DNA from: Lachnospiraceae bacterium | Lineage (GTDB): Bacteria > Bacillota > Clostridia > Lachnospirales > Lachnospiraceae | Direction: 5' to 3' | Assembly (NCBI GenBank): GCA_017482945.1 | Contig: JAFUMF010000023.1 | Span: 1 to 33,342 of the forward strand | Length of the DNA stretch: 33,342 nt | Part shown: in pieces, positions 25,918 to 28,529 of the stretch | Position numbering within the stretch: position 1 is the stretch's first letter | Layout: the number at the start of each line of letters is the position of its first letter | Notes under the pieces: model-generated | What the model saw: the letters and a program-made list of their open reading frames with translations, nothing else | Database searches by the model: none | What the model was told of the DNA's origin: nothing | Made by a program: the position numbers and the translations under genes

Positions 25918-25946
25918 ATTATACCTGTTTTCAGATAATAATGCAA
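25918..25946 (-). promoter_or_regulatory. Promoter of the beta-CASP/rnhA unit
   Basis: On the minus strand there is a -35 TTGCAT (25941-25946, inside the last codons of spoIVA), a 17-base spacer and a perfect -10 TATAAT (25918-25923). Confidence 0.7.
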
Positions 25947-27406
25947 ATCATTCCTCCATTTGAGTCATTTATTATTTTTTGTAACGTATCCTGCAGCTTT
26001 ATCTGGCAATCTTCTGTCATTTGAGAGATTTTTGCCTGCATTCCATCCTCCACGATCTGCTCCACCGACTTGCCGAAAATGTTCGTCTCCCACACACCAT
26101 CTTCTGTCGCTTCATTATTTTTTATGTATGCGATGAGATCCTTTGCCTGCTGCTCACTGCCGACGATCGGCGCGATCTCTGTCTCGATATGCGCTTTAAT
26201 CATATTGATGGACGGTGCCTGTGCATGAATCTTCACACCGTACTTATTGCCATGTTTGATCAGCTCCGGTTCCCGAAGCACAATTTCCGATTTATCCGGC
26301 ATGACGATCCCATACCCTTTCATCCGAACCTGGCTCAGGGCATTTTTCACCTTTTCGTATTCTCCTTGCATGCCCGAAAGTCTGGAAAGTGTGTGGAAGA
26401 GCTCATATTCGTCATCCACCGGAAGACCGGTATACTCACTGATCACATCAAAATAGCAATGATCCTCCATCTTCATTTCAACAGAAACCGTTCCGTCTGC
26501 CATCTCCATCTTGTTGACGGCAATGTCTGCCACCCCGGTATTTCTGTCTGCACGAAAGATCTCATGCTGCACATCCTTCATCTGATCCACGTTCATGAAA
26601 ATCTCTCTGGCATTCTCGATGGCTGCATGTTTCAGAGGATGGGAGTCAGGAAGAATCTCCATCCACTTTGGAATATGAAAATCCAGTTTTGTTACCGGAA
26701 ACTCTTTCAGAATCTTCGCAAGAATCATCTCAATATCATCTTTTTTCAGCTGCTCACAGTTCATGGGAAGTACTGTCACACCGTACTGTTCCTCCATTTT
26801 TCTTGCCGTCTCCTTCGTTTCCTCTGTATATGGCCTCGATGAATTTAATAAAATCAGGAATGGCTTTCCGATTTCCTTTAGTTCTTTCATCGTCTGGGCC
26901 TCTGCCTGCAGATAATCCATACGTTTTAGATCCCCAAAACTTCCATCCGTCGTCACAAGAATGCCGATGGTGGAATGATCGCGGATGACCTTTCGCGTTC
27001 CGATCTCTGCCGCCTGTGTAAACGGGATCTCGTAGTCATACCACGGTGTCTTCACAAGCCGGTCTTCCCCGTTTTCCTCATGTCCGGCCGCACCATCTAC
27101 CATAAAGCCCACACAGTCGATGAGCCGCACTTTTGCACTGATCCCATCCTCCAATGAAATCTCGGCTGCTTCCTTTGGAATAAACTTCGGCTCCGTCGTC
27201 ATAATCGTCTTTCCCGCCGCGCTCTGGGGAAGCTCATCCCTCGCAAGCGTCCTTCCATGTCCCTCCGGAAGTTTCGGAAGAACCATGACCTCCATGAACC
27301 GCTTGATAAACGTGGATTTTCCCGTGCGGACCGGTCCAACCACACCTATGTAAATCTCGCCCCCGGTCCTGGCTTCAATATCTTTGTATACATGGAAATT
27401 GTCCAT
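25931..27406 (-). CDS. spoIVA: Stage IV sporulation protein A
   Basis: SpoIVA is a mother-cell morphogenetic ATPase that polymerises on the forespore surface and forms the base layer of the spore coat. The 491-residue protein matches the family length. After the conserved start (FHVYKDIEARTGGEIYIG) comes the Walker A loop GPVRTGKS (24-31), then FIKRFMEVMVLP and the GTPase-like switch region RLIDCVGFMVDGA. The C terminus ends in the short hydrophobic tail CIII. In Bacillus it is controlled by sigma-E. The start ATG has GGGGG seven bases upstream, but that site lies in the 3' arm of a long hairpin. No terminator follows, so transcripts could enter the beta-CASP gene. Confidence 0.98.
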   Translation of the reverse strand: MDNFHVYKDIEARTGGEIYIGVVGPVRTGKSTFIKRFMEVMVLPKLPEGHGRTLARDELPQSAAGKTIMTTEPKFIPKEAAEISLEDGISAKVRLIDCVGFMVDGAAGHEENGEDRLVKTPWYDYEIPFTQAAEIGTRKVIRDHSTIGILVTTDGSFGDLKRMDYLQAEAQTMKELKEIGKPFLILLNSSRPYTEETKETARKMEEQYGVTVLPMNCEQLKKDDIEMILAKILKEFPVTKLDFHIPKWMEILPDSHPLKHAAIENAREIFMNVDQMKDVQHEIFRADRNTGVADIAVNKMEMADGTVSVEMKMEDHCYFDVISEYTGLPVDDEYELFHTLSRLSGMQGEYEKVKNALSQVRMKGYGIVMPDKSEIVLREPELIKHGNKYGVKIHAQAPSINMIKAHIETEIAPIVGSEQQAKDLIAYIKNNEATEDGVWETNIFGKSVEQIVEDGMQAKISQMTEDCQIKLQDTLQKIINDSNGGMICIII

Positions 27407-27449
27407 AAAAATACCCCCTTGTTATACTGATAGAGTATATGCAAGGGGG
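27407..27449 (-). promoter_or_regulatory. Hairpin masking the spoIVA ribosome binding site, also terminator-like
   Basis: On the minus strand CCCCCTTG (27449-27442) pairs perfectly with CAAGGGGG (27421-27414). Inside lie a 2x1-base internal loop and a second perfect stem, TATACT/AGTATA, with loop CTATC. The 3' arm is the only Shine-Dalgarno of spoIVA, seven bases before the ATG. It is followed by TATTTTT, so it also resembles a weak terminator for transcripts entering from gpsA. The 5' arm runs into CATATACT, which resembles a sigma-E -10 element. Confidence 0.7.
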
Positions 27450-27518
27450 ATGATTTCTTATACTATGAAATTATAATCCACGTTCGCGAACCAGATTTTC
27501 AGCCGCTTCGAAGGACGT

Positions 27519-28529
27519 TTATTCCTCCCATGGAAGATCACTGTGCTCGATCTTCTTATCACGGAGCATCAGGTCTGCCACAGCCTCTTTCGCCGGCTTA
27601 TTTTCAAATAACACCTCATTGACCTGTTCCACGATCGGCATCGGAATGTCATATTTTTTAGAAAGCGCAAGTGCGGCTTTCGCAGAATACACACCTTCGA
27701 CCACCATCTGGACTTCCTTCATCGCCTCGTCCATGGTGTAGCCTTTACCGATGAGAATACCTGCACGGCGGTTACGGCTGTGCATGGACGCACATGTTAC
27801 GATCAGATCGCCGATTCCTGTCAGGCCGGTAAATGTCTGGAACTTACCGCCCATAGCCATACCGAGACGTGCGATCTCAGTGATACCTCTTGTGATCAGG
27901 GCGGCCTTTGTATTATCTCCGCATCCATAACCATCCGCGATACCTGCAGCCAGCGCAACAACGTTCTTTAACGCCGCACCGACCTCAATACCTAACACGT
28001 CCGGACTCGTATATACACGGAACACCGGGCTCATGAACAGAGACTGGATGTATTCTGCCACTTCTTTTTTATGAGAACCTGCAACACAGGTAGTCGGAAG
28101 ACCACGGCTTACTTCCTCCGCGTGGCTCGGGCCGGAAAGTGCCGCCGGCTCACACTGCGGGATCTCTTCTTTGATGATCTGGGTCATGGTCATCAGGGTA
28201 TCTTCCTCGATTCCCTTTGCCACGTCCACGATAATCTGGCCTTCCTTGCAGAATTCTTTCATTCTTCTTGCTGTGCCGCGAACGAACACAGACGGAACTG
28301 CCAGAACCAGAAGATCCTTTTCCTTCATTGCAGCTTCCAGATCCACTGTATAGCAAATGGTCTCCGGAAGTGTGATCTCCGGAAGGTTTTTATGTTTTAA
28401 AGTAGCTTTCATCTCTTCGATTTCAGCCGGGATCGCAGACCACAAGTCCACACTGTGACCATTGTTATTCAGTAAAACCGCAATGGCTGTTCCCCAGGTA
28501 CCGGAACCGATAACGCCGATTTTTGCCAT
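27519..28529 (-). CDS. gpsA: NAD(P)H-dependent glycerol-3-phosphate dehydrogenase
   Basis: GpsA reduces dihydroxyacetone phosphate to sn-glycerol 3-phosphate, the backbone precursor for phospholipids and the substrate of PlsY next door. The 336-residue protein has the N-terminal dinucleotide site GSGTWGTA (8-15), an SGPSHAEEV segment in the middle and the catalytic lysine region VGAALKNVVALAAG, followed by FTGLTGIGDLIVTC and the conserved RNRRAG. The length is standard. The ATG has AGGAGG seven bases upstream, 11 bases after the plsY stop. I see no separate terminator except the hairpin before spoIVA. After the stop, a further 15 codons stay open in frame, which I regard as chance. Confidence 0.98.
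   Translation of the reverse strand: MAKIGVIGSGTWGTAIAVLLNNNGHSVDLWSAIPAEIEEMKATLKHKNLPEITLPETICYTVDLEAAMKEKDLLVLAVPSVFVRGTARRMKEFCKEGQIIVDVAKGIEEDTLMTMTQIIKEEIPQCEPAALSGPSHAEEVSRGLPTTCVAGSHKKEVAEYIQSLFMSPVFRVYTSPDVLGIEVGAALKNVVALAAGIADGYGCGDNTKAALITRGITEIARLGMAMGGKFQTFTGLTGIGDLIVTCASMHSRNRRAGILIGKGYTMDEAMKEVQMVVEGVYSAKAALALSKKYDIPMPIVEQVNEVLFENKPAKEAVADLMLRDKKIEHSDLPWEE

Follow-up and report, generated by a model that had tools for sequence, protein, structure and literature searches.

A conserved hairpin in the spoIVA leader of Lachnospiraceae pairs with the Shine-Dalgarno sequence and contains a putative sigma-E promoter

In the genome of a Lachnospiraceae bacterium (GenBank assembly GCA_017482945.1), the sporulation gene spoIVA lies behind housekeeping genes that point in the same direction, which raises the question of how it would be kept silent while its neighbors are transcribed. 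We analyzed the leader of this gene in a stretch of 33,342 nucleotides (contig JAFUMF010000023.1), hereafter called the window. Profile searches (Pfam/NCBIfam) identified the upstream neighbors of spoIVA as GpsA and PlsY. The gpsA-spoIVA intergenic region measures 112 bases, the last 43 of which form a hairpin and a TATTTTT tract, and the ATG follows directly. The relevant features are as follows.

25931 to 27406, minus strand: spoIVA (TIGR02836, E 9.5e-189, and Pfam SpoIVA domains)
27407 to 27413, minus strand: U tract TATTTTT between the Shine-Dalgarno (SD) sequence and the ATG, a putative terminator tract
27414 to 27449, minus strand: hairpin (sequence, folds, conservation and covariation; covariance model, 73.8 bits)
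27414 to 27418, minus strand: SD core GGGGG, in the 3' arm (unpaired probability and opening cost computed)
27421 to 27414, minus strand: 3' arm CAAGGGGG, which contains the SD core
27425 to 27429, centre 27427, minus strand: predicted transcription start zone, derived from the -10 and past the anti-SD arm
27434 to 27441, minus strand: CATATACT, a putative sigma-E -10 that lies within the 5' arm (column conservation, 128 leaders)
27442 to 27449, minus strand: 5' basal arm CCCCCTTG, the anti-SD, within the promoter spacer (sequence)
27457 to 27463, minus strand: putative sigma-E -35 GTATAAG, its ATAA beginning 20 nt before the -10 (family peak, 19)
27519 to 28529, minus strand: gpsA, the co-directional upstream gene and source of readthrough, with its 3' end at 27519

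Read 5' to 3', the minus strand is CCCCCTTG-CA-TATACT-CTATC-AGTATA-A-CAAGGGGG, then TATTTTT, then the ATG (27406). The stem consists of an 8-bp basal part, a 2x1 internal loop and a 6-bp upper part closed by a 5-nt loop. The sequence and folds thus agree with the first-pass annotation, which had described an interrupted hairpin of 14 pairs followed by TATTTTT at 27407-27449. It had also taken the 3' arm of the hairpin for the only SD of spoIVA, and GGGGG is indeed the sole SD-like stretch near, and reachable from, the ATG. Its proposal of a sigma-E-like sequence inside the 5' arm corresponds to CATATACT at 27441-27434. Finally, a terminator scan of the minus strand from gpsA to spoIVA listed none, in line with the claim that this interval has no other terminator; the scan also misses the spoIVA hairpin, whose stem has an internal loop.

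Folding of the 121-nt leader gives z = -3.1 relative to dinucleotide shuffles, with 1 of 200 shuffles equally good. The hairpin 36-mer has an energy of -17.7 kcal/mol, which was equalled or bettered by 17 of the 16,654 36-mers sampled in the window (both strands, overlapping positions counted). In RNA reading through from gpsA, every base of the SD core is predicted to be unpaired with a probability of at most 0.003, and opening the SD would cost 16.9 kcal/mol, versus 2.0 to 3.2 kcal/mol in the predicted own mRNA of spoIVA (transcripts starting 17 to 26 nt before the ATG). The residual cost in the own mRNA comes from weak pairing of the SD with the short leader and early codons, for some start sites, and depends on the exact start. 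According to these calculations, the SD would be sequestered in the long transcript, as in hairpins of the T4 gene e or Bacillus subtilis sigG type.

We collected 80 and 90 spoIVA loci from two genome sets and retained 154 distinct leaders, mostly from Lachnospiraceae and with the window included, after omitting duplicates, leaders that were too short and L001, which is the locus of the window itself. The device was present in 95 of the 154 leaders by a strict definition and in 116 by a loose one, and 39 of the 59 leaders without the strict device lie behind a co-directional gene. Roseburia hominis (L034) is among the carriers. Among the 95 strict devices, the median opening cost was 13.1 kcal/mol in the long RNA versus 1.9 kcal/mol in the own mRNA, and the difference reached at least 5 kcal/mol in 87 of them. 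By N-terminal identity, the strict device was found in 23/38 leaders at 80% and over, 50/66 at 70-80%, 20/46 at 60-70% and 2/4 at 50-60%. None of the seven loci L075-L081 (mostly Clostridium) carried the strict device, and three of them passed the loose test.

The SD core was paired at 0.7 or more in 119 of the 154 leaders, with 78.6 expected from dinucleotide shuffles. We judged this comparison weak because the shuffles keep the C-run, which is itself the arm, and used a species-swap test instead. The mean duplex energy was -11.2 with the leader's own arm versus -8.8 (sd 0.18) with swapped arms, and none of 200 swaps was as good as the own arms in any of the four subsets. The result also held when only leaders with an SD other than GGGGG, or only the more distant set, were considered.

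The first-pass annotation had proposed to judge the stem by covariation in aligned leaders. We aligned 72 of the 154, which were picked for a hairpin in a comparable register, with no fitting to the structure. The annotation had also named a non-conserved stem as grounds for rejecting its idea, and this outcome did not occur: taken together, the SD pairing, the swap test and the alignment show a conserved, covarying stem that follows the SD. All 8 pairs of the basal helix showed changes on both sides, and 78.2% of the cells pair; the covariation score was 0.209, versus 0.173 after shuffling (0/500 as good) and at most 0.167 when slid. The upper stem, which is constrained by the -10, was weaker (70.7% pairing for its five-pair part). 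Between leaders, the arms change jointly (CCCCC/GGGGG, CCTCC/GGAGG, CTTCTTA/TAAGGAG) and shift position relative to the -10, and pairing to the SD is what stays. On this comparative evidence, the spoIVA hairpin is a conserved RNA element, whose pairing appears to have been maintained through compensatory change, as in a hairpin of the T4 gene e or sigG type.

Sigma-E promoters have an ATA-type -35 located about 14 to 15 nt from a CATAnnnT -10. The consensus letters of sigma-G, sigma-K and B. subtilis sigma-E used here are general background, apart from the statement on ATA and AC in -35 elements. That statement is taken from an excerpt of PMC3789822, which also reports that spoIVA of Clostridioides difficile is sigma-E dependent and that sigma-E -35s carry ATA. 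For the promoter alignment we used 128 of the 154 leaders, those with a good CATAnnnT match at a plausible distance. ATAA, ATAT or CTAA starts 19 bases upstream of CATAnnnT in 62 of the 128 and within one base of that position in 93, counts in which one leader may in principle score at two positions. The first-pass annotation had called the window's -35 poor. Comparison answers this point, since an ATAA-type -35 recurs at sigma-E spacing in those 93 leaders and GTATAAG in the window, with its ATAA at -20, is one base beyond the family peak. The spacing and the motifs therefore point to a sigma-E promoter.

The columns between the -35 and the -10 become C-rich across the 128 leaders, and the anti-SD arm coincides with the promoter spacer in 80 of the 95 strict devices; in 14 of these devices it overlaps the -10. 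As the anti-SD fills the spacer, the own mRNA should lack it, with a leader of about 19 to 23 nt from the predicted start zone. In a second geometry (e.g., L052, L057 and L059-L061), a CTTCTTA arm next to the -10 pairs with TAAGGAG. With either geometry, a start at the predicted position, about 7 nt downstream of the -10, would exclude the arm, so that arm exclusion survives the change. One scan both selected the -10 and predicted the start, which makes arm exclusion to some extent part of the strict definition; the figure of 95/154 is thus not independent evidence for it, whereas the outcome preserved across geometries is. The position of the spoIVA promoter appears to keep the 5' arm out of the gene's own mRNA. 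As a separate observation, leaders of the L052-L073 clade (e.g., L057, L061 and L064) have CTTCTTA at and just after the -10 and no U tract.

Between the SD and the ATG, the T content was 0.67 in leaders with the hairpin (n = 116) versus 0.40 in those without (n = 38; p = 3e-7, relatedness ignored), and runs of at least four T occurred in 64/116 versus 8/38. The T-run also tracked the hairpin at yabP, which is described below (20 leaders with and 10 without hairpin; p = 3e-4, relatedness ignored). Since T-runs accompany it, the spoIVA hairpin is probably also a terminator, and in the window it combines the stable, GC-containing stem and the U tract expected of an intrinsic terminator. In one clade (e.g., L052, L057, L059-L061, L064, L067-L070 and L072), the SD is paired upstream and AAGGAGGATATT or a similar sequence precedes the ATG; SD sequestration is retained there with no T run, which suggests that SD burial is the more general function. 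Among loci with gpsA found upstream, separate ordinary terminators occurred in 3 of 13 hairpin-less leaders versus 3 of 38 with the loose hairpin, with no clear pattern.

We assigned the orientation of the upstream gene for 138 of the 154 loci by homology between loci and Pfam, leaving 16 unassigned; of 40 loci that homology did not settle, Pfam decided 7 and a rule on ORF length 17. Orientation from the longest open frames was dropped, as it was misled by antisense open frames. The ten divergent upstream genes identified via Pfam were confirmed by Pfam. The loose hairpin was found in 99 of 120 loci with a co-directional upstream gene versus 5 of the 18 whose upstream gene is divergent (Fisher, 5.7e-6), and the strict device in 81/120 versus 4/18 (Fisher, 4.2e-4). 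The hairpin is kept despite a divergent neighbor in L030, L041, L032 and L115 (strict) and in L024 (loose only). The SpoIVA tree yields only 6 independent pairs, for which the sign test on orientation was not significant (median p 0.6-1). The raw counts are strong and, with 6 independent pairs, the tie between the device and a co-directional upstream gene is suggestive.

The explanation that fits best, and that we regard as probable, is that of a readthrough insulator with spoIVA's own promoter built in. RNA polymerase arriving from der-plsY-gpsA would copy the whole hairpin, and the hairpin with its U tract may halt much of this transcription. In any mRNA that continues past the U tract, the SD would be buried at a computed ~17 kcal/mol, and SpoIVA would not be made during growth. 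In the sporulating mother cell, by comparison with other leaders, sigma-E would recognize GTATAAG and CATATACT, two elements with the anti-SD arm as their spacer, and initiation near 27427 would omit that arm and give a short leader with a nearly free SD. The first-pass annotation had offered insulation as an idea; the conservation and covariation of the stem, the conserved -35 and the same architecture at yabP all speak for it.

Could the hairpin simply end the gpsA operon, its overlap with the SD being a by-product of a short intergenic region? Stem stability, the short intergenic spacers and the co-occurrence of the T tract with the hairpin would suit such a terminator, but the AAGGAGGATATT-type clade retains SD pairing where the T run is absent, and we find this account unlikely. 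The inverted repeat also spans a promoter, as would an operator for a repressor such as SpoIIID overlapping the -10, and B. subtilis spoIVA is given as a direct SpoIIID target in an excerpt of PMC3789822. However, the arm sequences change together and move relative to the -10, and it is the pairing to the SD that persists, which makes a DNA operator hardly credible.

A regulated leader would require a sporulation promoter farther upstream and a protein, small RNA or ligand that opens the hairpin. A parallel can be found in B. subtilis sigG, whose ribosome-binding-site hairpin damps translation of its own mRNA according to an excerpt of PMC5942855. Against such a leader, the 7 columns immediately 5' of the -35 hold at most 0.24 bit (128 leaders), upstream spacers among spoIVA loci go down to about 50 nt (open-frame heuristic) and give little room for a second promoter, and an Rfam search of the spoIVA hairpin matched no family or riboswitch model. 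We thus consider a regulated leader very unlikely and retain the readthrough insulator.

A covariance model of the spoIVA hairpin matched nine places at E ≤10 in the window's own genome (G000), the best after spoIVA being yabP (E 0.0027; YabP by Pfam and NCBIfam). Candidate devices in this genome are listed below.

L172 723-790 (G000:C194): yabP device (covariance model match, fold)
L175 1501-1564 (G000:C78:4142-4205): device of a small lipoprotein gene behind dapB (both genes named by eye)
L174 1501-1560 (G000:C152): device of a SodC-like gene, whose long SD hairpin encloses a sigma-K-like promoter

Two other model matches were set aside: L173 (E 0.05) showed no real hairpin on folding, and the weak match L176 1398-1494 is an ordinary THF riboswitch (RF01831) before an ECF transporter S-component-like gene.

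At yabP, the SD was paired upstream in 20 of 30 leaders, including that of the window's genome. In 15 aligned leaders, chosen for a clear hairpin, 90.3% of the cells pair and the covariation score exceeded all 500 shuffles. The -35 is of the GGAATAA type, at sigma-E distance, and relatives with a promoter-embedded anti-SD/terminator hairpin include L199-L209, L213, L221 and L223. In L202 the gene order is mazG, HU-like, S4-like (HU and S4 named by eye) and then yabP, 71 bases on.

The lipoprotein gene has TGAATA-N17-CATAATA, which we take to be a sigma-G consensus, and its spacer TTCTCCTTTCTAAC is the anti-SD arm that pairs with the SD; computed opening costs were 11.8-15.2 kcal/mol (long RNA) versus 0.5-2.0 kcal/mol (own mRNA). 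The device is kept in two related genomes (L231, whose copy belongs to G002, and L232, which has CATACTA). When the sigma-G pattern was searched in 41 genomes, inspection by eye of the matches listed showed the device clearly at the lipoprotein gene of G000, G001 and G021 and nowhere else; sigma-G promoters do not carry it as a rule. At the SodC-like gene, the promoter is AC-N17-CATATCTTA. Of the collected leaders L305-L334, we compared 26 (L331-L334 left out); 25 were readable, L326 having no start, and by eye the device was clear only in the window's genome and L327. It is therefore barely or not conserved, and in the relative L306 an ordinary terminator followed by CATATACTA replaces it.

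A scan of the same genome for SD-T5-ATG gave 53 places versus 9 for the reversed pattern. Folding of 45 distinct leaders revealed a hairpin also at L281 (a YdcZ-type exporter), L264 (a peptidase-like frame, by eye), L296 (an unknown frame) and L291 (G000:C152:5790-7205, a transporter-like frame); several other matches were plain terminators with a chance ATG. In L291 a sigma-A-like TGGACA-N16-TATACT flanks the anti-SD, so that the design may extend beyond sporulation. A loose anti-SD/CATAnnnT/SD pattern was not enriched in this genome (124 places versus 230 reversed) and was dropped, and a sigma-E-plus-SD pattern gave 7 matches at 5 places (control, 4), with the device clear at spoIVA only.

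The device looks like a conserved, economical way of keeping a spore gene off during growth. More tentatively, and with rather more doubt than confidence, we propose that Lachnospiraceae use a general insulation scheme for genes that must stay silent behind active neighbors, assembled repeatedly with different sigma factors. Its compact element would be a promoter spacer that is the anti-SD arm, a 3' arm that is the SD and an SD-ATG spacer that is the terminator U tract; the sigma factors would be sigma-E at spoIVA and yabP, and sigma-G-like, sigma-K-like and sigma-A-like ones at the lipoprotein, SodC-like and transporter-like genes, respectively. Such repeated assembly would let housekeeping and sporulation genes be mixed at gaps of 50 to 110 nt. 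The readthrough insulator would explain the silence of spore genes among growth genes without ordinary terminators, by transcriptional and translational insulation in about 50 bases that double as a promoter. It would also allow sporulation mRNAs starting inside a hairpin to be predicted from sequence alone, giving testable start sites in a bacterial family poor in transcript data, and would offer a compact design for insulated promoters.

The mechanism class is already known, and the readthrough hairpin of B. subtilis sigG is reportedly covered by earlier references (Sun 1991; Masuda 1988). In an excerpt of PMC5942855, a hairpin of 20 or more bp at sigG (spoIIIG) is proposed to block translation of spoIIGA-sigE readthrough RNA and cannot form in mRNA from PsigG. 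Like spoIVA, sigG is thus a sporulation gene with a readthrough hairpin absent from its own-promoter mRNA, but at sigG a different sporulation operon supplies the readthrough and the promoter is of the sigma-F/sigma-G type, whereas spoIVA has housekeeping genes upstream, a sigma-E-like promoter whose spacer holds the anti-SD, and a U tract after the hairpin. For T4 gene e and I-TevI, an excerpt of PMC3014915 reports that folding of the longer, early transcripts hides the SD, that late mRNAs lack the 5' strand because late promoters sit in the DNA encoding it, and that the effect at gene e is 100-fold. As proposed for spoIVA, the long RNA hides the SD and an internal promoter skips the 5' strand; these are phage genes with a phage sigma factor and, in that excerpt, no mention of a terminator tract, in contrast to a chromosomal sporulation gene. 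With intrinsic terminators, the spoIVA hairpin shares a stable stem followed by a U-rich tract, but it encloses a promoter, and its 3' arm serves as the SD of the following gene. Apart from sigG and T4, our search of the open-access literature yielded no description of a comparable leader for spoIVA or yabP. What appears to be new is the family-wide form. It joins the hairpin to a terminator tract, lets the promoter spacer double as the anti-SD and recurs at spoIVA and yabP across Lachnospiraceae and, as judged from its layout, at other genes with other sigma factors.
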